Of a stretch of 64,000 nt of DNA, positions 7,257 to 26,294 are shown piece by piece. The translations under genes were made by a program, and so were the position numbers. The stretch comes from Allostella vacuolata (GTDB lineage Bacteria; Pseudomonadota; Alphaproteobacteria; ATCC43930; Allostellaceae), in the NCBI GenBank assembly GCA_006739055.1, contig AP019702.1, forward strand, positions 1,612,501 to 1,676,500, read 5' to 3'. Every line of letters starts with the position of its first letter. The stretch's first letter is position 1. The notes below the pieces were generated by a model. It worked only from the letters and a program-made list of their open reading frames with translations, searched no databases and was not told the origin of the DNA.

Positions 7257-7271
7257 CGGGAGGGAAGTGCC

Positions 7272-8156: not shown

Positions 8157-8166
8157 GCGACGGCAT

Positions 8167-8197
8167 CCCGGTAGGGACGACCGCCGCCCCTATCGGG
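8167..8197 (+). terminator. Candidate transcription terminator after the hyuAB operon
   Basis: CCCGGTAGGG (8167-8176) pairs with CCCTATCGGG (8188-8197), with one G-T wobble, giving a 10-bp stem and an 11-base loop. It lies 10 bases after the hydrolase stop and before the acetyltransferase. There is no T tract, so it could also be an mRNA 3' stabiliser. Confidence 0.4.
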
Positions 8198-8248
8198 ACT
8201 CGGGCGATCCGGGCAGGATGGCGCCCCCATCCGGAGAATCCCGCGCCC

Positions 8249-9567: not shown

Positions 9568-9640
9568 GGCGGTGGGGCTTAGTTAGCTGGGCTTACATAA
9601 GGATCGGTGCTATTTAAAGAATCTGGCCGATGCTTAATTA

Positions 9641-10760: not shown

Positions 10761-10773
10761 GGCGAATCCCCCT
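9858..10773 (-). repeat. Direct repeat, copy A (prpB duplication)
   Basis: About 915 bases covering nearly all of prpB copy A plus its ribosome site recur in the same orientation at 22309-23222. Edges are by eye: similarity ends in the last few codons on one side and 13 bases before the start codon on the other. No transposase, inverted ends or target duplication were seen. Confidence 0.85.
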
Positions 10774-11948: not shown

Positions 11949-11973
11949 GGGTTCTCTCCGAAGGCGGTCGGGG

Positions 11974-13494
11974 TCAGCTCTGCGGCCGGAAGATGCCGGC
12001 GGCGGCGGGCGCCAGCAGGCGGTCCGGGTCGACCGCGAAGTTGAGGCCGCCAAGCTCCTCGGCCGACAGCTCCGGCAGGCGCTCGACCGTGGCGAGGAAG
12101 CGGTCCTGCTCGGGCTTGGCGACGATGCCGTCGGCCAGCATGCGGAACTTCGCGACATAGTCCGGGCGGCTCCACGGCCGGGCGCCCAGCGGGTGGGCGT
12201 CGGCGACGGCGATCTCGTCCTCGACGACGCGGCCGTCGGCCAGGGTCACGACGACGCGGCCGCCGAACGCCTTCACTGCCGGGTCGGGCGAGTGGTAGCG
12301 GCGGGTCCATTCCGGGTCCTCGACGGTGCGGACCTTGTGCCACAGGGCGACCGTGTCGGGCCGGGCGGCACGCTCCGGCGCGTAGGAGCGCTCGTGGTGC
12401 CAGCCGCCGTCCTGGAGGGCGACCGCGAAGATGTACATGATCGAATGGTCGAGCGTTTCCCGGCTCGCCGCCGGGTCCATCTTCTGCGGGTCGTTGGCGC
12501 CGGTGCCGATGACGGAGTGGGTGTGGTGGCTGGTCCGGATCAGGATGTCGCGGACCTGCGACAGGTCGCTGACCCTGGGCCCCATGCGCCGTGCCAGATC
12601 GATCAGCGCCTGGCTCTGGTACTCGGCCGAATGCTCCTTGGTGTAGCTGTCGAGGATGGCGCGTTTGGCCTCGCCCGGCCCGGGCAGCGGCACCTGATAC
12701 CGCGCCTCCGGGCCGCCCAGCAGCCAGGCGATGAAGCCGTCCTCGCCCTCCCAGGCGGGGGAGGGGGCGCTCTCGCCGCGCATGGCGCGGTCGACCGCCT
12801 CGATCGCCATCTTGCCGGCGAAGGCCGGCGCATAGGCCTTCCAGGACGAGATCTCGCCCTTGCGCGACTGCCGGGTGGTGGTGGTGACGTGCAGCGCCTG
12901 CTGCACCGCCTGGTAGATCGTCTCCTGCGGCAGGTCGAGGAGCGCGCCGATGCCGGCGGCGGCGGAGGGGCCGAGATGGGCGATGTGGTCGATCTTGTGC
13001 GCGTGCAGGCAGATGCCCTTCACCAGGTCGACCTGGATCTCGTAGCCGGCAGCGATGCCGCGCAGCAGGTCGGCGCCGGAGCGACCGCAATGCTGGGCGA
13101 CGGCCAGCACCGCCGGGATGTTGTCGCCGGGGTGGGAATAGTCGGCAGCCAGGAAGGTGTCGTGATAGTCGAGTTCGCGCACCGCGACGCCGTTGGCCCA
13201 GGCGGCCCATTCCGGCGAGACGCGCCGGTTGGGGAAGTCGGACAGGCCGAAGACGGTGGCGCCCGGCCGGTAGGGATGGGCGACCGCCTGGACCCGCGCG
13301 CTCGCGACCGGGTGGCGGTTGAGCGAGGCGGCGGCGACGGCGGCGTTGTCGATCACCCGGTTGCCGATCATCTTCGCCACCGCGTCGTCGACCGGCACCG
13401 GGTCGGCGGCGACGGCGGCGATCTTCCACGCGAGCTGCTCCTCGCGCGGCAGGGGCTCGGCGGACTTGTAGGTGCGGACGGTGTGCAGCTTCAC
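11974..13494 (-). CDS. prpD: 2-methylcitrate dehydratase PrpD (MmgE/PrpD family)
   Basis: A 506-residue MmgE/PrpD protein, close to the usual length. It includes the family stretch [20 protein letters not shown] (about residues 106-125) and [19 protein letters not shown] (about 164). It dehydrates 2-methylcitrate to 2-methyl-cis-aconitate. The start codon is GTG at 13494, overlapping the stop of the upstream thioesterase gene (GTGA, 13491-13494), so the two are coupled. No acnD/prpF pair is seen here, so rehydration probably relies on an aconitase elsewhere, as in organisms that use PrpD. Confidence 0.94.
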
Positions 13495-13907
13495 GGTTCA
13501 CTCGGCTCCGGTAGGAGTTGCGGGATGGCGACCGGGCGTCCGGCCGTGTCGACGGCGACCATCTCGAAGCGGCCGCGCATGGCGAGCCGACGCTCGCCGG
13601 TCACCAGCGTCTCGGCCGTGACCTCGACCTCGACCGACATCGAGCTGCGGCCGGAGCGCACGACGCGGGCGTCGATCTCGACGACCTGGCCGACCTGGAC
13701 GGGCAAGTGGAAATCGATGTCGTGGGTCGCTGCCATGACGACCGGCGCGCGGGCGTGGCGGCTGGCGGCGACGAACGCGGCCTTGCCCATCAGCGCCAGC
13801 GCGGTGCCGCCGAAGAGCGTGCCGTAATGGTTCGACTGCTCGGGGAAGACCATCTCCAGGAAGCGGGCGCCGCTCGCCGGCGTCGGTATCGGAACTGCGA
13901 CCTGCAT
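13491..13907 (-). CDS. Acyl-CoA thioesterase (hotdog fold, YciA/BACH type)
   Basis: A 138-residue hotdog protein containing [20 protein letters not shown] (the catalytic Asn-x-x-G-xx-FGG segment) and [17 protein letters not shown]. It hydrolyses acyl-CoA thioesters. As first gene of the methylcitrate operon it may relieve propionyl-CoA build-up or recycle CoA (inference). I choose ATG at 13907 over the longer ATG at 13961, because the extra residues are a charged run (KRRRRRD) overlapping the probable promoter and operator DNA. A GGCGGAGAGAC ribosome site precedes 13907. Confidence 0.88.
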
Positions 13908-14048
13908 GTCTCTCCGCCTCCGCCGCTTGTTTTCGCCATCGTCGTTCCGCAATATCTGCAACGTGCTTCATCGGCGTAAGAACTGAATTTGCGTAGGTTT
14001 GCGGATGTGAGTCCGTGGCGTTGCAAATATTGCGAAGCGGAGAACGAG
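13908..14048. promoter_or_regulatory. Divergent promoter region of the methylcitrate operon and its regulator, with inverted operator pair
   Basis: The 141-base gap between the divergent genes carries two copies of one element in opposite orientation. The minus-strand copy is at 13945-13963; the plus-strand copy, CGTTGCAAATATTGCGAAG, is at 14019-14037. They match at 16 of 19 positions by eye. Each shares the TTTGCAA/TTGCA core known for RamB-type regulators of acetate and propionate genes. The plus copy ends about 11 bases before the regulator start and covers its ribosome-site area, which suggests autoregulation. Promoter hexamers are not clear. Confidence 0.6.
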
Positions 14049-15464
14049 ATGCGGAAGGCCTTCGTCGGCGTGCAGTTGCGCCGCCTGCGGGAAGAGCGGC
14101 GCCTGAGCCAGGCCCAGCTCGCCACCCTGCTCGGTCTGTCGACCAGCTACCTGAGCCAGCTTGAGCAGAACCAGCGGCCGTTGACCGTGCCGGTGCTGCT
14201 GAAGATCAACGGCACGTTCGGGACCGACGTCCCGCTCTTCTCCGAGGCGGACGAGGGGCGCCTCGTCGCCGACCTGCGCGAGGCCCTGTCGGAGGCCCAG
14301 ACGGGGGAGGCGGTGGCGCTGGCCGAGATCCGCGAGCTCGCCGCCAGCATGCCGGCGGTCGGCCGCGCCCTGGTCACCCTGCATCGGCGCTATCGCGAGG
14401 GTGCAGAGCGGGCCGAGGCGATGGCTGCCCGCCTCGGCGACGACTGGCACCAGGCCAAGCCCGTGCCGATGCCGTTCGAGGAGGTGCGGGATTTCTTCTA
14501 TGCCCGGCACAACCACATAGCCGAGCTGGACGAGGCGGCGGAGGCACTGAACCGCACGGCCGCGCTGGCGCAGGGCCACGCCCATGACGGGCTGGCCGCC
14601 TACCTGTCCGAGCGCCACGGCATTCGAGTGCTGATGGAGGCCGAGGACACACCGGGCGGTATCCAGCGGCGCTTCGAGCCGGCCGACCGCGTCCTGCGGC
14701 TGTCGGCCAGCCTGCGCCCGGGCCAGCAGGCGTTCCAGATGGCGACGCAGCTGGCCTTCCTGGAGGCGGGCGACATGCTGCGCCGCCTGGCCGATGTCGC
14801 CGCCTTCTCCACCGCCGAGGCTCGGTCGCTGGCCCGCATCGGTCTCGCCAACTACTTCGCCGGTGCGCTGATCCTGCCCTATGGCGCGTTCCTGCATGCA
14901 GCCGAGGACTGCCGCTACGACATCGAGCGGCTGGGACGGCAGTTCGACGTCGGCTACGAGACGGTCTGTCACCGTCTCAGCACGCTGCAGCGTCCGACCG
15001 CCCCCGGCATCCCGTTCTTCTTCATCCGCGTCGACCGGGCTGGCAACATCTCCAAGCGGCAGTCGGCGACGGACTTTCATTTCTCCCGGGTCGGCGGGAC
15101 CTGCCCGCTGTGGAATGTCTACGAGGCGTTCGCCTTTCCCGGCCGCATCCTGACCCAGAAGGCGCAGATGCCGGACGGCCGGACCTATCTCTGGATCGCG
15201 CGGACCGTCACCCGCGCCCATGGCCCCTACGGCATGCCGGGCAAGACCTTCTCGATCGGCCTCGGCTGCGACCTGCGCCATGCGGGCCGGCTCGTCTATT
15301 CGAAGGGTCTCAATCTGGCGGACGCCGAGGCGGCGACGCCAATCGGCGCCGGGTGCAAGGTGTGTGATCGGCGGGATTGTCCGCAGCGGGCATTTCCGCC
15401 GATCGGGCGGGCCCTTGCCGTCGACGAGAACCGCAGCCGCTTCGCGCCGTATCCGGTGTCATGA
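14049..15464 (+). CDS. XRE-family short-chain fatty acid transcription regulator (RamB/PrpR type)
   Basis: A 471-residue protein. The N-terminal helix-turn-helix (about residues 6-62; RLREERRLSQAQLA and STSYLSQLEQNQRP) is followed by an IrrE/ImmA-like middle domain lacking the HExxH zinc motif (QMATQLAFLEA at that place). The C-terminal DUF2083-like domain has cysteines GTCPLW and CKVCDRRDCPQ, a possible metal or ligand site. This is the architecture of RamB and of mycobacterial-type PrpR, which senses short-chain acyl-CoA. I choose ATG 14049, where the HTH homology begins, over 13989, whose 20 extra residues are not family-like. It is divergent from the methylcitrate operon and presumably controls it. 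Confidence 0.9.
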   Translation: MRKAFVGVQLRRLREERRLSQAQLATLLGLSTSYLSQLEQNQRPLTVPVLLKINGTFGTDVPLFSEADEGRLVADLREALSEAQTGEAVALAEIRELAASMPAVGRALVTLHRRYREGAERAEAMAARLGDDWHQAKPVPMPFEEVRDFFYARHNHIAELDEAAEALNRTAALAQGHAHDGLAAYLSERHGIRVLMEAEDTPGGIQRRFEPADRVLRLSASLRPGQQAFQMATQLAFLEAGDMLRRLADVAAFSTAEARSLARIGLANYFAGALILPYGAFLHAAEDCRYDIERLGRQFDVGYETVCHRLSTLQRPTAPGIPFFFIRVDRAGNISKRQSATDFHFSRVGGTCPLWNVYEAFAFPGRILTQKAQMPDGRTYLWIARTVTRAHGPYGMPGKTFSIGLGCDLRHAGRLVYSKGLNLADAEAATPIGAGCKVCDRRDCPQRAFPPIGRALAVDENRSRFAPYPVS

Positions 15465-16006
15465 GCGTCCCGGCCGTCCGCGCGCGGGGCGCGCCGCAGC
15501 CCCTACCGTTGCTCGACATCCGTGTCGACGCGGACCGGGTCTCGGTCTCCATCGCCCGGGCGTTGGATGCCAGTCCCGGCGTGGCCTTGCGGGCCGACGA
15601 ATGCCGCCGGCAGGTTCTGCGCGGACTCGGCCGGCTGGGGGCCGGTCGGGCGAGCGCCGACGGCGACGAGATGTTCGTGCGCTGCCGGTCAGGGCGCCGG
15701 GCGCGGATCGCCGATGTCGTTGCGCGGCTGGAGCGCCGCATCGCAGAGCTCGCGGATCGCCCACTCCCCGGTTCCCTGGTCGAGGCGGCGCTTGGCATCA
15801 CCCCGGCCGAGCGTGTCGCCTGGACGAGGGACGGCCGGCTCCCGCGCCAGGGGACCGGCTTCATGCGCCGCGGGCAGCCGATCCCCCTCTACGGCTATCC
15901 GGTGGCGGCGATCGCTCGCCTGATCGCGGAGCCGGCGATCGTCGCCGGGTGGCGCATGGGCGCAGGATCCGGAACTGTCCAAGCCGCTGGACCCGCCCCC
16001 TCTTGA
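15461..16006 (+). CDS. Hypothetical protein coupled to the RamB/PrpR-like regulator
   Basis: A 181-residue product I do not recognise. Its ATG overlaps the regulator's stop (ATGA, 15461-15464), which supports a real, co-translated gene, and third-position GC is high like the neighbours. It is rich in Arg and Ala, with no membrane segment or signal peptide. A conserved-looking C-terminal part is ALGITPAERVAWTRDGRLP, then RRGQPIPLYGYPVAAIARLI. That pattern could be a small DNA-binding or substrate-recognition fold, but this is a guess. It ends just before the nrdAB riboswitch promoter. Confidence 0.6.
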   Translation: MSVPAVRARGAPQPLPLLDIRVDADRVSVSIARALDASPGVALRADECRRQVLRGLGRLGAGRASADGDEMFVRCRSGRRARIADVVARLERRIAELADRPLPGSLVEAALGITPAERVAWTRDGRLPRQGTGFMRRGQPIPLYGYPVAAIARLIAEPAIVAGWRMGAGSGTVQAAGPAPS

Positions 16007-16032
16007 CGAGCACGGTCGATCGGCCACAACAT
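16003..16032 (+). promoter_or_regulatory. Candidate promoter of the nrdAB riboswitch leader
   Basis: TTGACG (16003-16008) and CAACAT (16027-16032) are separated by 18 bases. Transcription would start near 16040, immediately before the 5' edge of the cobalamin riboswitch at about 16044. The -10 is weak, but the position fits well. Confidence 0.45.
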
Positions 16033-16043
16033 CTTGCGTCCAC

Positions 16044-16228
16044 GGTTCCTCGTTGCCGATCGCATCGAGGCTAAGAGGGAACCCGGTGCGCCGTCGATCG
16101 CGACGGCTATGCCGGGGCTGCCCCCGCAACTGTAAGCGGCGAGCGGCTGCCGAGATCGGCCACTGGCGTCGCAAGACGCCGGGAAGGCCAGGCAGACCGC
16201 GGTGACCCGCGAGCCAGGAGACCTGCCG
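16044..16228 (+). ncRNA. Cobalamin (adenosylcobalamin) riboswitch upstream of nrdAB
   Basis: The conserved blocks of the family appear in order: AAGAGGGAACCCGGTG (16073-16088), GCCCCCGCAACTGTAAGCGG (16120-16139), the B12 box GCCACTGG (16159-16166), GGGAAGGCCAGGC (16181-16193) and CGCGAGCCAGGAGACCTGCC (16209-16228). The closing P1 strand may be around 16044. Such elements turn genes off when cobalamin is bound. Here the controlled genes encode a B12-independent ribonucleotide reductase. The output mechanism is not certain. A GGGGAC/GTCCCC hairpin (16288-16303) follows, and CCCC at 16327-16330 could pair with the GGGG of the nrdA ribosome site, so translational control is plausible. Confidence 0.95.
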
Positions 16229-16248
16229 TGCACGAAGAGATGGTCCGC

Positions 16249-16272
16249 GGGCGGGGTGCTCCGCTGGGTCGC
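16249..16272 (+). promoter_or_regulatory. Riboswitch output element shared by the nrdAB and metE leaders
   Basis: These 24 bases recur downstream of the metE riboswitch (21986-22009, minus strand) with one difference (C/T at the sixteenth base). The spacing from the end of the aptamer is nearly the same (20 and 19 bases). The core GCGG-GGTGCT-CCG(C/T) can form a small hairpin, and the C/T change keeps pairing as G-U. It may be the P13/L13 arm that docks on the aptamer's L5 loop in this riboswitch class (inference). Confidence 0.55.
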
Positions 16273-16350
16273 CTGTCGGCAGCTCGGGGGGACATGCGTC
16301 CCCGGGCCCGCGGTCGCCCATCCGATCCCCGCCATCGATGGGGGAACGGC

Positions 16351-18261
16351 ATGTCGACGAACCTGGCCTTTGACTTCGATCGCCTCGGCAACCTGGTGCA
16401 GCTGCCGCCGGCCGACCGCCGCCCCGCGTCGTCCATCGGCCGGGCGGCGCCGCTGCCGGCCCCCCTCGCGCAGCCGCCGGTTCCGGGCGATCTCCGGATC
16501 GATCGCGGGCGCGACGAGCTGCTGACGCCGTTCGGCAAGGCCACCCTGCGCGACCGCTACCTGATGCCGGGCGAGAGCTTCCAGGACATGTTCGCGCGGG
16601 TCGCCTGCGCCTTCGCCGATGACGTGGCGCACGCGCAACGGCTCTACGACGCGATCTCCCGCCTGTGGTTCATGTCGGCGACGCCGATCCTCTCGAACGG
16701 CGGCACCACCCGCGGCCTGCCGATCTCCTGCTTCCTCAACGCCGTGCCGGATTCCCTCTCCGGCATCGTCGATACCTGGACTGAGAATGTGTGGCTCGCG
16801 TCCAACGGTGGCGGCATCGGCACCTACTGGGGCGGGGTGCGCTCGGTGGGCGAGGCGGTGAAGGGCTGCGGAGAGACCTCGGGCATCATCCCCTTCGTCC
16901 ATGTCATGGACGGGCTGACGCTGGCGATCAGCCAGGGTTCGCTGCGCCGTGGTTCGGCCGCGGTCTATCTCGACATCCACCACCCGGAGATCGAGGAGTT
17001 CCTGGAGATCCGCAAGGCGTCGGGGGACTTCAACCGCAAGGGCCTCAACCTGCATCACGGCATCAACGTGACCGACGCCTTCATGGAGGCCGTGCAGGCG
17101 GGCGCGCTCTTCGCGCTGCGCAGCCCGAAGTCTGGCGCGGTGATGCGCCAGGTCGACGCCCGCCAGCTCTGGCAGCGCATCCTGGAGACGCGCCTGCAGA
17201 CCGGCGAGCCCTATCTCCTCTTCATCGACGCGGTGAACCGCAACCTCCCCAAGCACCAGCGCGAACTGGGGCTCAAGGTGTCGACGTCCAACCTGTGCAG
17301 CGAGATCGTCCTGCCGACGGGCGAGGACCATCGCGGCGAGGAGCGCACGGCGGTGTGCTGCCTGGCCTCCTTCAACATCGAGACCTGGGACCAGTGGCAG
17401 GGCGAGGCCGGCTTCGTTGAGGACGTGCTGCGCATGCTCGACAACGTCCTGACGCACTTCGTCGAGGTGGCGCCCGATTCGATGGCACGGGCGCGCTACT
17501 CGGCCATGCGCGAACGCTCGGTCGGCCTCGGCGTGATGGGCTTCCACTCGTTCCTGCAGGCCCAGGGCATCCCGTTCGAGAGCGCGCTCGCCAAGTCCTG
17601 GAACCTGCGCATCTTCCGTAAGCTGCGCCGGGACGCCGACGCCGCCTCGGTGGTGCTGGCGACCGAGCGGGGGCCGTGCCCGGATGCGCTCGAGCGCGGC
17701 ATGAACTCGCGCTTCAGCCACAAGCTGGCGATCGCGCCGACCGCGTCCATCAGCATCATCTGCGGTGGCACCAGCGCCTGCATCGAGCCGATCCCGGCCA
17801 ACATCTACAACCACAAGACCCTGTCGGGCGCCTTCGTGGTGCGCAACTCGGCTCTGGTCCGCCTCCTGGCCGAGAAGGGGTTCGACACGCCTGAAACCTG
17901 GCAGTCGATCGTCGAGAAGGAGGGCTCGGTCCAGCATCTCGACTGCCTGGACGCGGATGAGAAGGCCTGCTTCCGTACCGCCTTCGAGATCGACCAGCGC
18001 TGGATCATCGACCTCGCGGCCGACCGCGCGCCCTACATCTGCCAGAGCCAGTCGCTCAACCTCTACCTGCCGGCGGACATCGAGAAGTGGGACCTGCACA
18101 TGCTGCACTGGGCGGCATGGCGGCGGGGGATCAAGAGCCTCTACTACTGCCGCTCCAAGTCGATCCAGCGCGCGGCCTTCGCCGGTGCCGGCGAGCGCGG
18201 CGAGTTGCTGCGGGTGTCGGCTCCCCGCACCGACTACGAGGAGTGCCTGGCATGCCAATGA
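16351..18261 (+). CDS. nrdA: Class I ribonucleotide reductase alpha (catalytic) subunit
   Basis: A 636-residue product that reduces ribonucleotides to deoxyribonucleotides. Active-site residues are visible: Cys127 in LPISCFLN, N314-C316-E318 in SNLCSEIV, the redox partner Cys336/337 in TAVCCLASF, the radical-transfer Tyr pair in SLYYCRSKS, and the C-terminal shuttle CLAC (632-635). There is no N-terminal ATP-cone, so overall-activity control by dATP through that domain is absent. The start is ATG 16351, preceded by GGGGGAAC; upstream ATG 16228 falls at the end of the riboswitch and is rejected. The gene is overlapped by nrdB and lies behind a cobalamin riboswitch. Confidence 0.95.
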   Translation: MSTNLAFDFDRLGNLVQLPPADRRPASSIGRAAPLPAPLAQPPVPGDLRIDRGRDELLTPFGKATLRDRYLMPGESFQDMFARVACAFADDVAHAQRLYDAISRLWFMSATPILSNGGTTRGLPISCFLNAVPDSLSGIVDTWTENVWLASNGGGIGTYWGGVRSVGEAVKGCGETSGIIPFVHVMDGLTLAISQGSLRRGSAAVYLDIHHPEIEEFLEIRKASGDFNRKGLNLHHGINVTDAFMEAVQAGALFALRSPKSGAVMRQVDARQLWQRILETRLQTGEPYLLFIDAVNRNLPKHQRELGLKVSTSNLCSEIVLPTGEDHRGEERTAVCCLASFNIETWDQWQGEAGFVEDVLRMLDNVLTHFVEVAPDSMARARYSAMRERSVGLGVMGFHSFLQAQGIPFESALAKSWNLRIFRKLRRDADAASVVLATERGPCPDALERGMNSRFSHKLAIAPTASISIICGGTSACIEPIPANIYNHKTLSGAFVVRNSALVRLLAEKGFDTPETWQSIVEKEGSVQHLDCLDADEKACFRTAFEIDQRWIIDLAADRAPYICQSQSLNLYLPADIEKWDLHMLHWAAWRRGIKSLYYCRSKSIQRAAFAGAGERGELLRVSAPRTDYEECLACQ

Positions 18262-19382
18262 ACGGCAGTGGCCCGGAGGGGCTGGGGCATCTCGATCCGC
18301 GGGCCCTGATCAGCACGGGCCGCGTCGGTCTCCTGAGCGCGACCGGCACCTACGACGTCGAGCGCTATCCCTGGGCGTACGAGTTCTGGAAGCGCCAGCA
18401 GCAGACCCACTGGATGGGCGAGGAGGTGCCGCTCGGCGCCGACATCAAGGATTGGACGTCCGACCGGGTGACGCCGGCCGAGCGCGCGCTGCTGACCCAG
18501 ATCTTCCGCTTCTTCACCCAGTCCGACGTCGAGGTGGGCGACAACTACCTCAAGCGCTACATCCCGATCTTTCAGCCGCTGGAAGTGCAGATGATGATGG
18601 CGGCTTTCACCAACATGGAGACCGTGCATATCGACGCCTACGCCCTGCTGCTGAAGACGCTGGGGATGCCCAAGGCGGAGTTCGAGGCCTTCCGCGACTA
18701 TGACGAGATGCGGGCGAAGGCCGACTACATGCACACCTTCGGCGTCGGCACGGTATCCGATGTCGCGCGCACGCTCGCCATGTTCGGCGCCTTCACCGAG
18801 GGCATGTCGCTGTTCGCCAGCTTCGCCATGCTGCTCAACTTCCCGCGCCACAACAAGATGAACGGCATGGGCCAGATCGTCTCCTGGTCGGTGCGCGACG
18901 AGAGCCTGCACTGCGAGGGCATCATCCGCTTGTACCATGAGTGGCACCGGGAGACGGGGGCGGTGACGGCCGCCGTGCGCGACGACATCGTCGGCGTGGC
19001 CCGCACGATGGTCGGGCTGGAGGAGCGCTTCGTCGACCTCGCCTTCGGGCTCGGCGCGATCGAGGGCATGCGGGCCGAGGATATCAAGGCGTATGTCCGC
19101 TACATCGCCGACTGGCGGCTGACCCAACTGCGCATCGATCCGGTCTTCGGATACTTCGAGAAGCGGGATACCGGCTTCCACGCCATCCGGCCGCATCCGC
19201 TGCCCTGGCTCGTCGAAATCCTGAACGGCGTCGAGCACGCCAACTTCTTCGAACAGCGGGCGACCGAGTATTCCAAGGCCGCCAGCCGCGGCAGCTGGGA
19301 CGGGCCGGACGGCGTGTGGGCCGTCTTCGACGCGCTGGACCGTGCCGCGCGCGAACCGGCGCCGGGGCGGACCGCCTCCTGA
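18252..19382 (+). CDS. nrdB: Class I ribonucleotide reductase beta (radical) subunit
   Basis: A 376-residue ferritin-like subunit that generates the radical. Metal ligands E123 and H126 lie in METVHIDAY, further Glu in FTEGMSLFA, and Glu/His in RDESLHCEG. Y130, four residues after H126, is at the Tyr-radical position, so a tyrosyl-radical (Ia-like) cofactor is likelier than the Phe-type Ic enzyme. The start at 18252 is chosen because GAGGAG (18238-18243) sits eight bases upstream; ATG 18258, in an ATGA overlap with nrdA, is the alternative. It converges with metE across the hairpin at 19402-19427. Confidence 0.95.
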   Translation: MPMNGSGPEGLGHLDPRALISTGRVGLLSATGTYDVERYPWAYEFWKRQQQTHWMGEEVPLGADIKDWTSDRVTPAERALLTQIFRFFTQSDVEVGDNYLKRYIPIFQPLEVQMMMAAFTNMETVHIDAYALLLKTLGMPKAEFEAFRDYDEMRAKADYMHTFGVGTVSDVARTLAMFGAFTEGMSLFASFAMLLNFPRHNKMNGMGQIVSWSVRDESLHCEGIIRLYHEWHRETGAVTAAVRDDIVGVARTMVGLEERFVDLAFGLGAIEGMRAEDIKAYVRYIADWRLTQLRIDPVFGYFEKRDTGFHAIRPHPLPWLVEILNGVEHANFFEQRATEYSKAASRGSWDGPDGVWAVFDALDRAAREPAPGRTAS

Positions 19383-19401
19383 CGGCCCCGACCCCGGCCA
19401 T

Positions 19402-19427
19402 CCACCCCGGCCGTGTGGCCGGGGTGG
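19402..19427. terminator. Bidirectional terminator hairpin between nrdB and metE
   Basis: CCACCCCGGCC (19402-19412) and GGCCGGGGTGG (19417-19427) form a perfect 11-bp stem with a GTGT loop in the 64-base gap between convergent genes. There is no T tract on either side, as is common in GC-rich genomes. Confidence 0.6.
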
Positions 19428-19446
19428 GCGATCGAGACCGACCGGT

Positions 19447-21744
19447 CTAGCCGGCGGCGTTCCGCATCGCCTGGGCCGCCGCCACCATGTTCACGAGGGC
19501 GGGGCGGACCTCTTCCCATTTGCGGGTCTTCAGGCCGCAGTCCGGGTTCACCCAGATCTGGTCCGGCGCCAGGTGCTGCCGCGCCTTGGCCAGCAGGTCC
19601 GCCATCTCGTCCACCGGCGGGGTGCGCGGGGCGTGGATGTCGTAGACGCCGGGGCCGATCTCATTCGGATAGCGGAAGTTTGCGAAGGCGTCGAGCAGCT
19701 CCATCTTCGACCGCGCGGTCTCGATGGAGATGACGTCGGCATCCATGGACGCGATGGAATCGATGATGTCGTTGAACTCCGAGTAGCACATGTGCGTGTG
19801 GATCTGGGTTGCGTCCGCGACGCCCGATGCCGTCAGCCGGAAGCAGGTGGCGGCCCAGTCGAGGTATGCCTGCCAGTCGGCGCGGCGCAGCGGCAAGCCC
19901 TCGCGGAAGGCCGGCTCGTCGATCTGGATGATGCGGATGCCCGCGCGCTCCAGGTCGACCACCTCGTCGCGCAGCGCCAGCGCGATCTGGCGGCAGGTCG
20001 CCTCGCGCGGCTGGTCATCGCGCACGAAGGACCATTGCAGCATGGTCACCGGGCCGGTCAGCATGCCCTTCACGGGCCGCTCGGTCAGGGACTGGGCGTA
20101 GCTCGCCCACGCCACCGTCATCGGATTCGGCCGCGCCACGTCGCCGAAGATGATCGGTGGCCGGACGTAGCGCGAGCCGTAGCTCTGCACCCAGGCGTGC
20201 CTGGTGAACGCGTAGCCCGACAGCTGCTCGCCGAAATACTGGACCATGTCGTTGCGTTCGAACTCGCCATGGACCAGCACGTCGATGCCGACCTCTTCCT
20301 GCCATCGTACCGCGCGCTCGGTCTCCTCGCGCAGGAACTGGTCATAGGCGGCATCGTCGATGCTGCCCTTGGCGTGGGCCGCGCGGGCCTTGCGCACCTC
20401 CTCGGTCTGCGGGAACGAGCCGATCGTCGTGGTCGGGAACGCCGGCAGGCCGAGATGGGCGCGCTGGGCAGCCCGGCGGCCTGCGAAGCCCGACGCCCGC
20501 TTGTCCATCCCGGGGGCGACGGCGGCCAGACGCGCCGCCACCGCCCGGTCATGGATGCGGGGCGAGGTCCGCCGCGTCCGTGCCGCCTCGGCCGAGGCGG
20601 CCAGGCTGTCCGCGACGGCGGCGCGGCCCTGGTCGATCGCCCGCCCGAGGACCGATAGTTCCTCCAGCTTCTGCTGCGCGAAGGCGAGCCAGCCGCACAG
20701 CTCCGCGTCGAGGCCGGTTTCGAGCGCCAGGTCGATCGGCACATGCAGGAGCGAGCAGGAGGGGGCGATCATCACCCGCTCCACGCCGCGGGCGGCGACC
20801 ACCGGCTCGATCCGGTCGAGCAGCGCCGGCAGGTCGCTGCGCCACACGTTGCGGCCGTCGATCACCCCGAGCGACAGGGTCAGGCCGGCGGGCGCGCGGG
20901 CCAGCGCGCGGTCGAGCTCGCCTGGCGCGCGGGCGAGGTCGAGATGCAGGCCCGCCACCGGCAGGCGCAGTGTGGCGTCAAGATTGTCGCCCAGCCCGCC
21001 GAAGTAGGTCGCGAGCAGCAGCCGCAGCGACGGCGCTGCAGCCGCCAGGGCCTGATAGGTGGTGGCGAAGGCCGCGCGGGTCGCGTCGTCCAGGTCGAGG
21101 ACTAGGCAGGGCTCGTCGATCTGGACCCAGTCCGCGCCGGCGGCGGCCAAGCGCCGCAGTACCTCGGCATAGACCGGCAGGAGGCCAGGCAGCAGGGCCA
21201 GGCGGTCCATGCCGTCATCGGCGGCCTTGCCGAGCAGCAGGTAGCTGACCGGCCCGAGCAGGACAGGTCGGGTGTGGATGCCCTGGCCCTTCGCCTCGGT
21301 GAACTGGTCGACGGCCTTGGTCGAGGCCAGGCAAAATTCCTGTCCGCGGGCGAATTCAGGCACCATGTAGTGGTAGTTGGTGTCGAACCACTTGGTCATT
21401 TCCTGCGCCGGCAGGTCGCCGCTCGACCGGCCGCGGGTGCCGCGTGCCATGGCGAAATAGGTCTCCAGCGGCACCGTGCCCCCATTCCAGCCGTAGAGGG
21501 CGGGGACCGCGCCCACCATGACGCTGGTATCGAGGACATGGTCGTAGAGGGAGAAGTCGTTGCTCGGCAGGTGGCCGATGCCGGCCTTGCGCTGGCGGCT
21601 CCAGGCCGCGGTGCGCAGCGCCGCGGCGTCGGCCAGCAGGCCGGCGGCATCCCGCCTGCCGGCCCAATGGTCTTCCAGCGCCTTCTTCAGTTCGCGGCGT
21701 GGACCGATGCGGGGGAAACCCAGCGTGCTCGTGACGATCGACAT
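19447..21744 (-). CDS. metE: Cobalamin-independent methionine synthase
   Basis: A 765-residue, full-length MetE that transfers the methyl group of methyltetrahydropteroyl-glutamate to homocysteine. The N terminus STLGFPRIGPRRELKKALE is the classic start. The C-terminal catalytic barrel has zinc ligands in IHTHMCYSEF (His, Cys), a downstream Glu, and the last Cys in NPDCGLKTRKWEEV. DLERAGIRIIQIDEPAFREG is the homocysteine-site stretch. It sits alone behind its own promoter and cobalamin riboswitch, so it should be expressed only when B12 is scarce. Confidence 0.97.
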   Translation of the reverse strand: MSIVTSTLGFPRIGPRRELKKALEDHWAGRRDAAGLLADAAALRTAAWSRQRKAGIGHLPSNDFSLYDHVLDTSVMVGAVPALYGWNGGTVPLETYFAMARGTRGRSSGDLPAQEMTKWFDTNYHYMVPEFARGQEFCLASTKAVDQFTEAKGQGIHTRPVLLGPVSYLLLGKAADDGMDRLALLPGLLPVYAEVLRRLAAAGADWVQIDEPCLVLDLDDATRAAFATTYQALAAAAPSLRLLLATYFGGLGDNLDATLRLPVAGLHLDLARAPGELDRALARAPAGLTLSLGVIDGRNVWRSDLPALLDRIEPVVAARGVERVMIAPSCSLLHVPIDLALETGLDAELCGWLAFAQQKLEELSVLGRAIDQGRAAVADSLAASAEAARTRRTSPRIHDRAVAARLAAVAPGMDKRASGFAGRRAAQRAHLGLPAFPTTTIGSFPQTEEVRKARAAHAKGSIDDAAYDQFLREETERAVRWQEEVGIDVLVHGEFERNDMVQYFGEQLSGYAFTRHAWVQSYGSRYVRPPIIFGDVARPNPMTVAWASYAQSLTERPVKGMLTGPVTMLQWSFVRDDQPREATCRQIALALRDEVVDLERAGIRIIQIDEPAFREGLPLRRADWQAYLDWAATCFRLTASGVADATQIHTHMCYSEFNDIIDSIASMDADVISIETARSKMELLDAFANFRYPNEIGPGVYDIHAPRTPPVDEMADLLAKARQHLAPDQIWVNPDCGLKTRKWEEVRPALVNMVAAAQAMRNAAG

Positions 21745-21985
21745 GACGGATCCTTTCGCGGGCGCCCTGCGAAGGCTGGGCCCGGCGTTCGACAGTTCAG
21801 GTTCAGGTTCGGGTGATGCGGCGGCGCGGCGACCAGGCGGCGCGCGACGACGGAACCGGCCTGCGTGGCGGATCGTGTTGTCGGAACGGAAGATTGGAGA
21901 TCATCGGCATACCCCATCTGCATGGGGGCATGGGCCGCGCGGAACGCGTGCGATCGGACGGACGGCAGGCGTCGTCCGCTTGCAA

Positions 21986-22009
21986 GCGACCCAACGGAGC
22001 ACCCCGCCC
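21986..22009 (-). promoter_or_regulatory. metE copy of the shared riboswitch output element
   Basis: This is the minus-strand counterpart of 16249-16272, 23 of 24 bases identical, placed 19 bases after the aptamer. The rest of the leader down to the metE start (21745-21985) shows no other clear feature and is not similar to the nrdA leader. Confidence 0.55.
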
Positions 22010-22028
22010 GTGGACGTTGTTTCGTCGC

Positions 22029-22207
22029 GGCAGGTCTCCTGGCTCGCGGGTCGCAGCGAACTGTCCGGCCTTCCCGGCGCCAAGACGCCAGTGACCCATA
22101 GCGACAGCCGCTCACCGCTTACAGTTGCGGGGGCAGCTCCGGCATTGCGATCCCGCGTCTGGACGACGTGGGGGCACGCACCGGATTCCCTCTTAGCTCC
22201 GGCACCA
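22029..22207 (-). ncRNA. Cobalamin riboswitch upstream of metE
   Basis: Read on the minus strand from 22207, the blocks are AAGAGGGAATCCGGTG, GCCCCCGCAACTGTAAGCGG, the B12-box variant GTCACTGG, GGGAAGGCCGGAC and CGCGAGCCAGGAGACCTGCC (ending near 22029). It is clearly homologous to the nrdAB riboswitch at 16044-16228. Binding of cobalamin should switch off the B12-independent methionine synthase, so that MetH is used instead; this is the classical arrangement. Confidence 0.96.
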
Positions 22208-22241
22208 TCTCATGGACGGCCCGGAGAACCACGACGCGGGA

Positions 22242-22270
22242 AGTAGATCCGGGTACGGGGTGCCTGTCAA
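22242..22270 (-). promoter_or_regulatory. Sigma-70 type promoter of the metE leader
   Basis: On the minus strand a perfect -35 TTGACA (22270-22265) and a -10 TCTACT (22247-22242) are separated by exactly 17 bases. Transcription should start near 22235, about 28 bases before the riboswitch core. Confidence 0.7.
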
Positions 22271-22277
22271 TGCCGAT

Positions 22278-22293
22278 ATAATGATATCGTTAT
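22278..22293. promoter_or_regulatory. AT-rich near-palindrome upstream of the metE promoter
   Basis: ATAATGATATCGTTAT is symmetric at 7 of 8 pairs around GATATC. It stands out in this GC-rich sequence. It lies 8 bases upstream of the metE -35 and 4 bases beyond the stop of prpB copy B. It could be an operator for an unidentified regulator of metE. Confidence 0.35.
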
Positions 22294-22297
22294 GTGA

Positions 22298-23209
22298 TTA
22301 TGCCACCGCCGGCACCACCGTCCGCACGATCGACGCATCGAGGGCCTCGTATTCGTGCAGGCCGATGGTCTCGTACAGTTCGGCGCGGGACTGCATCCGG
22401 TTGAGCATGCCGCGGGTGCCGTCGTCCCGGGCGATGGCGGCGTAGAGCTCGGCCTGGGCCCGGTTGGCGACCCGCAGCGAGGAGACCGGCCAGATCACCA
22501 TGCGGTAGCCCATTGCCTCGAACTCCGCCCCGGTGAAGAACGGCGTGCGGCCGAACTCGGTCATGTTGGCGAGCAGCGGCACCCCGGGCAGGGCGGCCGC
22601 GAAGGCGCGGAACATCTCGGCACTGGTCATCGCCTCGGGGAAGATCGCGTCGGCGCCGGCCTCCAGGTAGAGGCGGGCGCGGGCGACGGCGCCGTCCAGG
22701 CCTTCCGACGCGGCGGCGTCGGTGCGGGCGATGACGTAGAGGTGGCGCCGGGCGCGGGCGGCGGCGGCGACCTTGGCCGCCATGTCGCGGGCATCGGCCA
22801 GCTTCTTGTCGTTGAGGTGCCCGCACTTCTTGGGCAGCAGCTGGTCCTCCAGGTGCACGGCACCCGCGCCCGCATCCTCGAAGGCGCGGACCATGTTCAT
22901 GACGTTGAGCGCCTCGCCGTAGCCGGTGTCGCCGTCGACCAGCAGCGGCAGGCCCGAGGAGCGGGCGACCTGGCGGATGAAGAAGCAGACCTCCTCGATG
23001 GTGATGATGCCGAGGTCGGGCAGGCCCATGGAGGCGCTCATCGCCCCGCCGGAGAGGTAGAGCGCCCGGAACCCGGCCGCCTTCGCCTGCAGGGCCGCCA
23101 TGCCGTTGTGCGCGCCCGGCATGCGCAGGATGCCGGGCTCCTCCAGGAGGCGGCGGAAGCGCACCCCCGCCGGCTCCGCGGCGAGGTCCGATGCGACCAG
23201 GTACGGCAT
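22298..23209 (-). CDS. prpB: 2-methylisocitrate lyase-like protein (PrpB copy B)
   Basis: A 303-residue near-copy of the protein at 9846-10760, with the same KKCGHL catalytic loop and DGDTGYG metal site. I see only D-to-E (ITIEEV), A-to-T (EAMTSAEM), Q-to-R (SIVRTV) and a different last few residues. By eye about 28 base differences occur over about 915, and most are silent, so both copies seem to be under selection. The matching DNA includes the ribosome site and 13 bases before the start codon. It follows the amidase gene closely (14-base gap), apparently as one transcript. Confidence 0.92.
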   Translation of the reverse strand: MPYLVASDLAAEPAGVRFRRLLEEPGILRMPGAHNGMAALQAKAAGFRALYLSGGAMSASMGLPDLGIITIEEVCFFIRQVARSSGLPLLVDGDTGYGEALNVMNMVRAFEDAGAGAVHLEDQLLPKKCGHLNDKKLADARDMAAKVAAAARARRHLYVIARTDAAASEGLDGAVARARLYLEAGADAIFPEAMTSAEMFRAFAAALPGVPLLANMTEFGRTPFFTGAEFEAMGYRMVIWPVSSLRVANRAQAELYAAIARDDGTRGMLNRMQSRAELYETIGLHEYEALDASIVRTVVPAVA

Positions 23210-23222
23210 GGCGAATCCCCCT
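22309..23222 (-). repeat. Direct repeat, copy B (prpB duplication)
   Basis: This is the second copy of the prpB-containing repeat, 12.45 kb from copy A. The 5' portion of the gene (about 23005-23222) differs from copy A at only one base that I can see, while the middle has clusters of changes. That mosaic pattern is what gene conversion gives. Confidence 0.85.
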
Positions 23223-23223
23223 C

Positions 23224-24618
23224 TCAGACCACGACCGGCGCGACCGACTGCACGACCCAGCGGGCCATCGCCGTGATCCGCGCATCTTCGTGCTGCTGGC
23301 CCATCAGCTGCACGCCGACCGGCATGCCGTCCACGCCCATCAGCGGCATGGTGAAGGCGGGCGCGAACAGCATCGAGCTGGGCGCGTTGAAGACGAAGTC
23401 GCCGGTCGGCCGCGGCGCCAGGGGCTGGCCCGGCACGTCGCCTGCCCAGGGCGTGGCCGGCCCGGGGCAGGACAGCATGATGCAGGCATCCGCCAGCGGG
23501 GCGAGCGTGGCATGCCGCAACTGGGCCGCCTCGCGGTCGGCCAGCAGGGTGCGGTACTCGTCGAGCGTCATCGCCTCCGCCTTGGCCAGGGTCGCCTGGG
23601 CCCGCGCGCTGACCTGGCCGGGATACTGGTCGACCAGGTTGCGGTGGCCCCAGCGGTTCTCCCAGCTGGTGATGCCGCCGCACACGGCGCGGCCGTTGGC
23701 GACCGCGCGCTCCAGCGCCTCGATCCAGGCATGGTCGCGGCGGCGCAGCAGGGTGACGCCGGCCTTCTCCAGCGCCTCCAGCACCATCGCGAAGCCGCGG
23801 CGGGTGGCGTCGTCGACGCCGGGCCAGCCTTCCGTCTCCAGCACGATCAGGCGGCCGGGCTTGACCGGCTCGGGCGTGGCGTCCGGCCCCATCAGCCCGC
23901 GCCGGCCGGGGTCGCCGCCGGCACGCCGGACGATCTCGATCGACGTCACCCAGACGTCCTCGACCGAGCCGGCATGGATGCCGTGGGTGCTCATGCTGGT
24001 GGTCTGGCGCTCGCCGCGGTTCATGCCGCCCTGGGTCGGCTTCAGCGCATAGTTGCCGCAGAAGGCGGCCGGCCGGATGATCGAGCCGCCGACCTGCGAG
24101 CCGACCGTGGCCGGCACCATGCCGGCGCCGACCGCCGCCGCCGATCCCGAAGACGAGCCGCCCGGCGTGCGCGAGGGGTCGAACGGGTTGGTGGTCGCCC
24201 CGGGATGGGCACCGCCCAGCTCCGCCGTCACCGTCTTGCCCATGACCACGGCGCCCGCCTGGCGCAGCGCCCAGACGGCGGCATTGTCGCGCCTGGGGAA
24301 GTTGCCGCGATAGGCCTCGCAGCCCATCTCGGTCGGCATGTCCCTGGTTTCCAGCAGGTCCTTGATGCCGATCGGCAGCCCGTCGACCGGCGACAGCGGC
24401 CGGCCGTCCTGCCAGCGCCTCGTGCTCGCGTCGGCTGCGGCGCGTGCGCCCTCGGCATTGACCACGGTGAACGCCTTCACCACCGGCTCGCGCCGGTCGA
24501 TCGCCTCCAGGCAGCGCTCCAGGTAGGCGCGCGGGGTGTCGCTGCCGTCGCGGAACCTGGGCGTGGCATCGTGGAAGGTCAGCGCCTGGAAGGTGCGCGG
24601 GTCATAGCTGCCGGACAT
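23224..24618 (-). CDS. Amidase (amidase signature family)
   Basis: A 464-residue amidase. The Ser-cisSer-Lys triad is visible: Lys in LPIGIKDLLE (about residue 84), the Ser-rich loop RTPGGSSSGSAAAVGAG (about 160), and the nucleophile region GSQVGGSIIRPAAFCG (about 183). It hydrolyses a carboxamide to acid and ammonia in the cytoplasm. It is probably co-transcribed with prpB copy B, which ties release of an acid to a lyase step (inference). A second amidase lies at 49414-50679. Confidence 0.9.
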   Translation of the reverse strand: MSGSYDPRTFQALTFHDATPRFRDGSDTPRAYLERCLEAIDRREPVVKAFTVVNAEGARAAADASTRRWQDGRPLSPVDGLPIGIKDLLETRDMPTEMGCEAYRGNFPRRDNAAVWALRQAGAVVMGKTVTAELGGAHPGATTNPFDPSRTPGGSSSGSAAAVGAGMVPATVGSQVGGSIIRPAAFCGNYALKPTQGGMNRGERQTTSMSTHGIHAGSVEDVWVTSIEIVRRAGGDPGRRGLMGPDATPEPVKPGRLIVLETEGWPGVDDATRRGFAMVLEALEKAGVTLLRRRDHAWIEALERAVANGRAVCGGITSWENRWGHRNLVDQYPGQVSARAQATLAKAEAMTLDEYRTLLADREAAQLRHATLAPLADACIMLSCPGPATPWAGDVPGQPLAPRPTGDFVFNAPSSMLFAPAFTMPLMGVDGMPVGVQLMGQQHEDARITAMARWVVQSVAPVVV

Positions 24619-24661
24619 GGGGGCTCCTCGGGGAGGAAAGGGAATCGGCCGAAGCGGATCG

Positions 24662-25507
24662 TCAGCCTAGCGCCTGGTTGATCAGTCCGAACAGCCTCAC
24701 GCCGCGGCCGGCGGCAGGGGCGGGACCGCGGGCCATGGTGATGCCGGGGGCGATCTCCGGCATGCCGTGCGCCGCCAGCCACGGGCCGAGGTCGGAACCG
24801 GCCGGGATGTCGAGGCGCAGGAAGGTGCCGCGATGGGCGCCCATCCAGTGGCCGACGAGCGCGCGGGCGGCCGCATCGTCCGGCGCCACCACCGGGCCGA
24901 CCAGCCGGCCGCGGCCGAACACCCGGCAGATGGCGAAGCCGACGGGCGTGCCGTCCTGCTCCAGTACCACCCCCTCGGCGATGGCCAGCAGCGCGTGCAG
25001 CACATGGTCGCGCGCGAGCCCGGTCGCCTGGGCGTCGAGCGCGGCCAGGACCGGCACGTCGGCCGGCGTCGCCGGGCGGATGCGCCATCCGGCCGGCAGC
25101 GGCTCGTCGGGGGCGATGCATTCTCCCTGGTGCTGGTGGACGGTGCCGAGGGCGGCGAAGCCCAGTTTCTCGTAGAGGGGGGCGCCGGCATCGGTCGCGA
25201 TCAGCAGCGTCGTGCGCGGGCCGATCGCCTCCAGGAGCCCGGTCATCATCCGCCGGCCGATGCCGGCACCCTGGCGCTCGGGGGCGACGATGACGAGGCC
25301 CAGGGTGGCGAAGCCGTCGCCGAAGGGCCAGTACAGGCCGGTGCCGACCAGCACCCCAGCCTCGTCGATCGCCAGGCCCCGCCCCAGCCCGTGGACGAAG
25401 CGCCAGTCCTCCAGCCGGTGCGCCCAGCCGACCGCGCGCGACAGGCCGTGCGCCGCCGCAAGGTCGTCGGCCGTCAGCTCGCGGATCGGGGTGGGGGTGC
25501 TCGCCAT
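24662..25507 (-). CDS. Tandem GNAT acetyltransferase
   Basis: A 281-residue protein with two GNAT units. The N-terminal one is complete (VIVAPERQGAGIGRRMMTGL is the acetyl-CoA loop, about residues 73-92; LYEKLGFAALG follows). The second (about 150-270) starts at RIRPATPADVPVLAALD and is more diverged, lacking a clear Q/RxxGxG/A loop. It probably acetylates an amine; the substrate is unknown. The longer upstream frame is shadow; ATG 25507 follows GGAGCGGCCC. It is divergent from the HAD gene. Confidence 0.85.
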   Translation of the reverse strand: MASTPTPIRELTADDLAAAHGLSRAVGWAHRLEDWRFVHGLGRGLAIDEAGVLVGTGLYWPFGDGFATLGLVIVAPERQGAGIGRRMMTGLLEAIGPRTTLLIATDAGAPLYEKLGFAALGTVHQHQGECIAPDEPLPAGWRIRPATPADVPVLAALDAQATGLARDHVLHALLAIAEGVVLEQDGTPVGFAICRVFGRGRLVGPVVAPDDAAARALVGHWMGAHRGTFLRLDIPAGSDLGPWLAAHGMPEIAPGITMARGPAPAAGRGVRLFGLINQALG

Positions 25508-25615
25508 GGGCCGCTCCTGTCGGGTTCGAATGTCGCGGGGCTTGTACACCGGCGGCAGATGCCGCTTCCATCTTCGGCTATCCTGCCGCCACCCAGACCG
25601 ACGGAGCCAGCGCCC

Positions 25616-26284
25616 ATGTCCGACCTCCGGCCGAAATACATCACCTTCGACTGCTACGGCACGCTGACCCGCTTCCGCATGCCGGAGATGTCGCGGGAGC
25701 TGTTCGGCGACCGCATCCCGGCCGACCAGATGGACCGCTTCATCCGCGACTTCGCCGCCTACCGCTTCGACGAGGTGCTGGGCGACTGGAAGCCCTATGC
25801 CGACGTGCTCTCGAACGCGGTCGAGCGCACCTGCCGGCTGTGGCGCATCCCCTTCCGGCCGCGCGACGGGCGGGCGATCTACGAGGCGGTGCCGACCTGG
25901 GGCCCGCATGCCGACGTGGCCGAGCCGCTTGCCCGGGTCGCGAAGGAATATCCGCTGGTGATCCTGTCCAACGCGTCCGACGACCAGATCCAGTCGAACG
26001 TCGACAAGCTGGGCGCGCCCTTCCACCGTGTCTTCACCGCCCAGCAGGCCCAGGCCTACAAGCCGCGCCTGCAGGCGTTCGAATACATGCTGGACGAGCT
26101 CGGCTGCGGCCCCTCGGACATCCTCCATGTCTCGTCCAGCCTGCGCTACGACCTGATGTCGGCCCACGACCTGCGCATCACCGACAAGGTCTTCGTCAAC
26201 CGCGGCCACGACCCGTCCTGCCCGGCCTACGGCTATCACGAGGTGCAGGACATCGGCGGGCTCGCGACGCTGCTCGGGCTCTGA
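25616..26284 (+). CDS. HAD-family hydrolase (haloacid dehalogenase type II-like)
   Basis: A 222-residue HAD protein. The nucleophile motif FDCYGTL (Asp about residue 11) has the DxYGT form seen in L-2-haloacid dehalogenases rather than DxDxT, then ILSNAS (motif II), a Lys in YKPRLQAFEY (motif III) and DILHVSSSLRYDL (motif IV). A dehalogenase or a phosphatase are both possible. The gene ends 10 bases before the FAD oxidoreductase and is probably co-transcribed with it. Confidence 0.88.
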   Translation: MSDLRPKYITFDCYGTLTRFRMPEMSRELFGDRIPADQMDRFIRDFAAYRFDEVLGDWKPYADVLSNAVERTCRLWRIPFRPRDGRAIYEAVPTWGPHADVAEPLARVAKEYPLVILSNASDDQIQSNVDKLGAPFHRVFTAQQAQAYKPRLQAFEYMLDELGCGPSDILHVSSSLRYDLMSAHDLRITDKVFVNRGHDPSCPAYGYHEVQDIGGLATLLGL

Positions 26285-26294
26285 AGGCGGGCCG

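Follow-up and report, generated by a model that had tools for sequence, protein, structure and literature searches.

We asked why, in the alphaproteobacterium Allostella vacuolata, two cobalamin riboswitches read toward each other over the genes of a class I ribonucleotide reductase (nrdA-nrdB) and of the B12-independent methionine synthase (metE), and whether these genes are part of a larger unit. The stretch analysed, referred to as the window, comprises 64,000 nucleotides (contig AP019702.1, positions 1,612,501 to 1,676,500). The riboswitch-nrdAB-metE block had been noted before in a first-pass annotation; we found that it belongs to an island extending from ~9.85 to 22.3 kb of the window, which also carries methylcitrate cycle genes and a regulator. 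The locus is likely to be a B12-independence island, in which bypasses of three B12-dependent enzymes are gathered, two of them behind riboswitches and the prp arm under the regulator, and which would free a B12 auxotroph from its dependence on MetH.

Two cobalamin riboswitches facing each other over nrdAB and metE were already part of the first-pass annotation, and both aptamers passed the RF00174 covariance-model test well above the gathering score of 31.5 bits. They are the sole Rfam matches reaching that score in the 64-kb window. The whole genome (a single contig of 5,834,761 bases, 5.83 Mb) contains three RF00174 matches, two of them from the window and the third 5' of a BtuB-like TonB receptor (TIGR01779, 347 bits, below the cut-off of 600). 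Between the two riboswitches lie nrdA-nrdB and the convergent metE:

16026-16244, plus strand: cobalamin riboswitch aptamer of nrdAB (RF00174, 126.1 bits, E 2.9e-31; L5 CCCCGC at 16122-16127)
16247-16264, plus strand: P13/L13 hairpin of the nrdAB riboswitch (loop GCGGGG, complementary to L5)
16351-18261, plus strand: nrdA1, class I ribonucleotide reductase alpha (PRK09102, 982 bits, cut-off 620)
18252-19382, plus strand: nrdB1, class I ribonucleotide reductase beta (PRK09614.1-5, 505 bits, cut-off 237)
19401-19428, unstranded: hairpin between the convergent nrdB and metE (12-bp stem, no T tract, z -3.04)
19447-21744, minus strand: metE, B12-independent methionine synthase (TIGR01371, 1099 bits, cut-off 930)
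21994-22011, minus strand: P13/L13 hairpin of the metE riboswitch (loop GCGGGG, complementary to L5 CCCCGC)
22012-22248, minus strand: cobalamin riboswitch aptamer of metE (RF00174, 120.6 bits, E 1e-29)

The hairpin between nrdB and metE is a single one, as had been described; it lies in a gap of 64 bases, and the fold of this stretch reaches -41 kcal/mol. A loop L13 complementary to L5 is present 3' of both window aptamers and is kept by all three riboswitches of the genome. Judged by its sequence, this complementarity at both leaders is the L5-L13 kissing loop that part of PMC9600662 describes as a feature of cobalamin riboswitches. Across the loci described below, GCGGGG occurred within 90 nt 3' in 59 of 70 distinct riboswitch pattern matches (shuffled mean 10.9). 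In the 34 pattern matches with the full loop motif, pairs 1-4 of the P13 stem were kept in 32, 31, 29 and 25 cases, pair 5 in just 11 and pair 6 in 26, from which the stem is considered short. The two window copies of P13 differ by one compensated pair (G-C versus A-U), and the P13/L13 hairpin stands ~90 nt from the start of nrdA and ~250 nt from that of metE.

We then considered what the genes of the island could replace. Both nrdJ and metH, which the first-pass annotation had named as genes to look for, are present in the genome (NrdJ, PRK07562, 2194 bits; MetH, TIGR02082, 1227 bits), as is methylmalonyl-CoA mutase (PRK09426, 1254 bits), whose gene lies outside the island, elsewhere in the genome. 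The methylcitrate cycle allows propionyl-CoA to be used without B12, and the B12-dependent route runs via methylmalonyl-CoA mutase. These B12-free and B12-dependent routes are also described in parts of PMC4428469 and PMC10924821. Because all three B12 enzymes are found in the same genome, the island holds a bypass for each of them: NrdAB for NrdJ, MetE for MetH and PrpBCD for methylmalonyl-CoA mutase. The third arm is a leftward run of thioesterase, prpD-like, prpC and prpB genes, while the regulator and a small unnamed gene run rightward into the nrdAB riboswitch:

9846-10760, minus strand: prpB copy 1, methylisocitrate lyase (TIGR02317, 408 bits, cut-off 354)
10773-11948, minus strand: prpC, 2-methylcitrate synthase (PRK12351, 677 bits, cut-off 550; scanned as 10773-12023)
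11974-13494, minus strand: prpD-like 2-methylcitrate dehydratase gene (NF042438, 905 bits, cut-off 950)
13491-13961, minus strand: hotdog-fold acyl-CoA thioesterase, YciA-like (PRK10694, 53 bits, below the cut-off of 162)
13989-15464, plus strand: PrpR/RamB-type (IsaR/ScfR) regulator, divergent from prp (NF038139, 626 bits, cut-off 700)
15461-16006, plus strand: conserved unnamed 181-residue protein, its start overlapping the regulator stop
22298-23209, minus strand: prpB copy 2 (TIGR02317, 410 bits, cut-off 354; scanned to 23212)

The prpC start at 11948 is our own reading of the sequence, the scanned frame reaching 12023, and the true start of the regulator may be the ATG at 14049. The regulator motif CKVCDRRDC satisfies C-X2-C-X4-C, which in part of PMC6765138 is given as a trait of acyl-CoA-binding PrpR-type/IsaR regulators.

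Next, we asked whether the host would need such a bypass. Matches to PF00590 (corrin-ring methyltransferases) numbered two in the window genome and two in each of the three genomes of the same genus among the 81 compared (G001-G003), and these are probably siroheme and rRNA enzymes. By this family, corrin-ring synthesis appears to be absent from all four genomes; since the matches are too few for a cobalamin pathway, the genus probably has to import B12, and the island is the likely route to methionine without it. The window MetE is the only full-length MetE of its genome (two further matches, 26-27% identical, cover the C-terminal part). None of the three sisters had nrdA1 (best match 72%, of the nrdA2 kind), a full-length MetE or PrpC (citrate-synthase-like matches only, 29-41%, the best-scoring 35-36%), and all three had MetH. 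Thus, the idea of the first-pass annotation that nrdAB and metE form one physical unit held in that they sit in a block missing from three congeners, but this block also includes the methylcitrate arm and its regulator.

If the combination matters, it should be found elsewhere. Scanning genome contigs with NrdA1 turned up 145 relatives. The best 80 of them were taken as loci, and riboswitches were called by our own sequence pattern within 900 nt 5' of nrdA. The pattern was checked by Rfam in 39 loci, which among the 80 NrdA loci included 9 of the 31 called with a riboswitch (all 9 confirmed), along with 14 of the 49 called without; in 13 of these 14, Rfam found no riboswitch directly 5' of nrdA, and the remaining one (L066) had a weak match of 34.4 bits and was counted as without. 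A pattern match at 12967-13158 of L170 was not confirmed by Rfam. A riboswitch thus preceded nrdA in 31 of the best 80 relatives; 4 of the 49 others had <500 nt upstream. Within the sequence fetched around nrdA (up to 10 kb per side), metE was found at 5 of the 31 riboswitch-nrdA loci (L055, L080, L082, L093, L099) and at 0 of the 49 (Fisher p 0.007), and at 5/21 versus 0/25 of the loci that had 8 kb of sequence to either side (Fisher p 0.015); both p values are rough, as the loci are related. Matches to prp genes were seen at 4 of the 31 (L057, L080, L082, L093) versus 0 of the 49. We discounted L080, whose PrpD-like protein scored 161 bits over half the model, and likewise did not count an AcnD-like protein of L170, which scores as aconitase AcnA and not as AcnD. 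In L082 the prpB- and prpC-like proteins were below their cut-offs and PrpF was above its own. L057 carries prpB-prpC-prpD, the regulator, the riboswitch and nrdAB in window order at 70-86% identity, with no metE on a contig that ends 2 kb past nrdB. On two Azospirillum replicons, riboswitch-nrdAB is accompanied by metE, the regulator, the unnamed gene and prpC-acnD-prpF-prpB-like genes.

We also approached the question from metE. Matches at E 1e-100 or better were found in 29 of 289 genomes of the class, and the surroundings of metE (3 to 20 kb each) were analysed in 28 genomes with the window as the 29th. A riboswitch lay directly 5' of metE in 4 of the 29 (window, L170, L171, L172), nrdA was in the stretch in 3 (window, G203, G300) and methylcitrate genes were near metE in 4 (window, G203, G300 and G216, the latter as L187). 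In G203 and G300, which belong to one genus, nrdB-nrdA-riboswitch-regulator faces prpD-prpC-prpB-metE, whereas in L055 and L099 nrdAB and metE are divergent, each with a riboswitch. Taken together, riboswitch-nrdAB, metE and methylcitrate genes lie within ~20 kb in five lineages: the window, G203/G300, Azospirillum, Magnetospirillum fulvum (L082) and a metagenome-assembled genome of the Methylocystaceae (L093).

These numbers bear on the simplest alternative, that two ordinary riboswitch-controlled units are neighbours by chance, with the prp genes as unrelated company. Riboswitch control of a B12-independent ribonucleotide reductase and of metE has long been known (part of PMC545781). The exact convergent riboswitch-nrdAB-metE-riboswitch order was found only in the window among the loci examined, 26 of the 31 riboswitch-nrdA loci had no metE in the fetched stretch, and in L170, L171 and L172 metE has a riboswitch to itself while the fetched stretch lacks nrdA. 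We nevertheless regard chance as very improbable: it is opposed by the closeness of the three gene sets in five lineages, the window included, by the fact that the linked MetE proteins do not form one clade (see below), and by the number of metE neighbours, 5 observed among 31 against 0.12 expected were metE in every genome (kinship ignored). The co-occurrence in relatives expected by the first-pass annotation therefore holds for the linkage of riboswitch-nrdAB with metE, which recurs beyond chance, and not for the exact convergent block.

A second alternative is that the locus is a propionate-catabolism island under the PrpR/RamB-type regulator, with nrdAB and metE as passengers. The regulator is indeed found directly 5' of riboswitch-nrdAB or one small gene off in L038, L052, L054, L057, L082, L174 and L175, and within ~7 kb of it in L061 and L093. 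Moreover, in G203 and G300 (L174, L175) metE may follow the prp operon, because it lies ~30 nt behind prpB and has no riboswitch of its own. However, the window nrdAB and metE each have their own riboswitch. NrdAB and MetE are not known to take part in the use of propionate, and what all three arms share is the bypass of a B12 enzyme. We therefore judge the passenger explanation improbable and prefer the B12-independence island. As a separate observation, the L174/L175 layout may tie methionine synthesis to propionyl-CoA sensing.

Did the linkage arise once? In a quick MetE tree of 37 rows (L044 and L082 being fragments), the window MetE fell into a set of 9 rows (Shimodaira-Hasegawa-like approximate likelihood ratio test, SH-aLRT, 99). 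Members of this set show linkage to riboswitch-nrdAB, a riboswitch of their own or, in the case of L044, a position beside riboswitch-btuB with no shown linkage to nrdA. Linked MetE of the Azospirillum type formed a separate clade, with unlinked rows in between. A single origin of the nrdAB-metE linkage was rejected by approximately unbiased (AU) tests, with p 4.4e-7 for 11 rows including L044 and p 1.8e-41 for 10 rows without it; holding the two clades together, a grouping picked after seeing the tree, gave p 7.1e-9. The AU p values vary widely and are to be read as 'rejected' only. That riboswitch-nrdA forms one clean clade was not shown either (5 label changes in a tree of 51 chosen rows, with long branches for L046 and L105). 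The dehydratase also differs: it is PrpD-like in the window, L057 and G203, and Azospirillum, L093 and G216 have AcnD together with PrpF instead. The same genes come together in differing orders, under differing control and with differing enzyme types, a recurrence that points to selection for the combination.

How would the island respond to B12? With ample B12, cobalamin would bind both riboswitches, L5 would pair with L13, and nrdAB1 and metE would be shut off, most likely at the level of translation; when B12 is scarce, both would come on. In M. tuberculosis, the metE riboswitch acts by a translation block with Rho-dependent termination, according to part of PMC12713380, and by analogy our guess is that a similar translation block or Rho-type action operates at the island leaders. 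The prp arm has no riboswitch, and here the divergent regulator would sense the acyl-CoA that accumulates when the mutase lacks B12, so that this arm would sense B12 indirectly. In M. tuberculosis supplied with B12, PrpD and PrpC became undetectable and MetE 9.8-fold lower (part of PMC10924821), while the riboswitches listed in part of PMC12713380 are at metE, ppe2 and rpfB and none is at prp; a riboswitch is thus not required for a prp arm to follow B12. A MetH-dependent cell that has the island would then be able to grow without B12, in a genus that apparently cannot make the corrin ring.

Several results weigh against this reading or parts of it. The PrpD-like protein did not reach its cut-off, hence its label, and its identity is supported by the prpBCD run in which it stands, an arrangement also found in L057 and L174. 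Similarly, the regulator remained below the RamB equivalog cut-off and is therefore filed only in the wider PrpR/RamB family. A consensus scan of 15700-22400 found no intrinsic terminator (shuffles 1.7), and the folds of the leaders did not surpass those of shuffled sequences (z -0.16 and +1.68); for these two reasons we no longer regard intrinsic termination as the likely mechanism. The nrd arm looks dispensable, given a second nrdAB near 830 kb with no riboswitch nearby (nrdA2, PRK09102, 999 bits, and nrdB2) and an NrdJ/NrdZ-like enzyme of 777 residues encoded near 210 kb. The sisters have single-domain MetE-like proteins; because of these, and because other methyltransferases were outside the survey, their need for B12 is something we infer. 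The flanks of the island are 1.6 Mb apart in G001 and on separate contigs in G003, and the direction of change, acquisition here as opposed to loss elsewhere, which we infer, is drawn from four genomes and one near-empty site.

These points modify two further proposals of the first-pass annotation. A single gain or loss would shift B12 dependence for methionine (and for propionate), but probably not for DNA precursors, because the riboswitch-free nrdAB2 and the NrdJ/NrdZ-like enzyme lie elsewhere and the sisters' nrdA is of the second kind. Also, of the promoters assigned to both riboswitches, only -35-like boxes are visible (TTGACG at 16003-16008; TTGACA at 22265-22270, minus strand); the consensus scan of the same 15700-22400 region found no sigma-70-type promoter (shuffles 0.3), so that the promoters are not demonstrated.

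Finally, we asked where the island came from. In G002, the counterparts of window positions 6000-9568 and 22326-27000 are 3.26 kb apart with no island between; this near-empty site is one genome of three, as the flanks in G001 and G003 are not adjacent. The island is bracketed by a direct repeat of prpB, with arms at 9854-10774 and 22303-23223 in the same direction, 12.4 kb apart and 96.85% identical over 921 gapless bases (29 mismatches). Copy 2 adjoins an amidase gene, as prpB does in G001 and G002; in G003 prpB is without the amidase. The window copies are ~97% identical to each other and 83-90% to those of the sisters, so that the repeat either postdates the split of the genus or was homogenised. 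We rejected the idea that prpB copy 1 was a donor-borne gene, both copies being of the resident lineage. A prpD-like gene (63-65% amino acid identity) was present elsewhere in all three sisters, and the sequence fetched around it gave no match to prpC. No tRNA was found in the window, and no integrase or transposase among the assigned island genes (the flanks were partially scanned).

The opposite history, in which the cluster is ancestral to the genus and was lost in the three sisters, is in our view unlikely, though clearly less so than the two alternatives above. The same-order genomes G020 and G030 carry relatives of parts of the island, direct repeats would favour deletion, and GC content at third codon positions (GC3) in prpC (0.935) and prpD (0.953) is like that of the flanks. 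On the other hand, this history requires that each of the three sisters lost nrdA1, metE and prpC, and it has to accommodate the closeness of the two prpB copies; in addition, GC3 is lower in the thioesterase, regulator, unnamed gene, nrdAB and metE (0.85-0.93, versus 0.94-0.98 in 9 flanking genes), which is a weak sign. Acquisition of the island remains the preferred origin. Whatever its origin, recombination between the prpB copies would delete prpC through metE at once.

The closest known system is the prpR-prpDC-Rv1132-metE cluster of M. tuberculosis, which is repressed by B12 (part of PMC10924821). In both, methylcitrate genes, a divergent regulator of the same wider family and a riboswitch-controlled metE lie side by side (parts of PMC10924821 and PMC6765138); the window fits this closeness of regulator, prpDC and metE, but riboswitch-nrdAB lies between and the host is an alphaproteobacterium. 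In the sections of these sources consulted, no nrd gene is among those named for the M. tuberculosis cluster and its prp operon has no prpB. Its repression by B12 was seen at the RNA level, and at the protein level for PrpC, PrpD and MetE. Riboswitches on B12-independent isozymes have been described for NrdDG beside NrdJ in delta-proteobacteria (part of PMC545781) and for metE (part of PMC4428469). The island shares with them a riboswitch 5' of the B12-free enzyme and the presence of the B12-dependent one, but those cases are described gene by gene, and the parts of the two papers used mention no multi-bypass cluster with a methylcitrate arm. Azospirillum replicons p2 and p3 (NZ_CP032323.1, NZ_CP032342.1) resemble the window in having, as a single run, metE, a short-chain fatty acyl-CoA regulator, the unnamed protein, riboswitch-nrdAB and methylcitrate genes; they differ in having AcnD/PrpF in place of PrpD, a MetE of another clade, a LysR-type gene and no riboswitch directly 5' of metE, and methylmalonyl-CoA mutase genes beside the cluster. 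Neither a three-arm cluster nor its presence and absence within a genus was found in the literature searched, which did not extend to early riboswitch surveys. The individual pieces were already known, and the part that appears new is the three-arm cluster with its uneven presence within one genus.

B12 dependence is usually treated enzyme by enzyme; here, substitutes for three B12 enzymes share one locus, and the cluster with two arms known from M. tuberculosis can be seen as one instance of something more widespread. The sister species provide a natural control for whether vitamin dependence is gained or lost as a package, and the cluster would predict which members of a community can escape competition for B12. 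More tentatively, and with somewhat more doubt than belief, we suggest that selection repeatedly builds a portable 'B12-freedom' cassette in Alphaproteobacteria. It would join bypasses of NrdJ, MetH and the mutase under two sensing layers (riboswitches for B12, the acyl-CoA regulator for a failing mutase) and would turn obligate into facultative B12 use in one step, a change that the prpB repeat would make reversible by recombination.

Two of the smaller genes also recur. Proteins similar to the YciA-like thioesterase are close to cluster genes in L082 and L170. Homologues of the unnamed 181-residue protein are found 5' of riboswitch-nrdA in L038 (1012-1476), L043 (2233-2724), L052 (8997-9509), L054 (6996-7508) and L061 (7371-7835), and the family has 24 invariant columns over 6 sequences (L038 and L061 as matched stretches only). 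The window copy had no Pfam, NCBIfam or significant PDB match, and no known family could be assigned, one of the six members touching DUF3158 at E 0.014. In nine further loci (L071, L072, L075, L079, L087, L088, L089, L091, L092), a riboswitch-btuB starts ~5 to 6.5 kb 5' of nrdAB on the same strand and nrdA has no riboswitch of its own, possibly forming one operon for B12 uptake and ribonucleotide reduction. A conjugative plasmid of Bradyrhizobium barranii (L053, NZ_CP088281.1, 10226-13233) carries nrdAB of the nrdA1 type among insertion sequence elements, with no riboswitch by pattern. Lastly, p3 of Azospirillum brasilense carries one more cobalamin riboswitch (L054, 1251-1501); it precedes a small hypothetical gene in the vicinity of a gene of the methylmalonyl-CoA mutase family.

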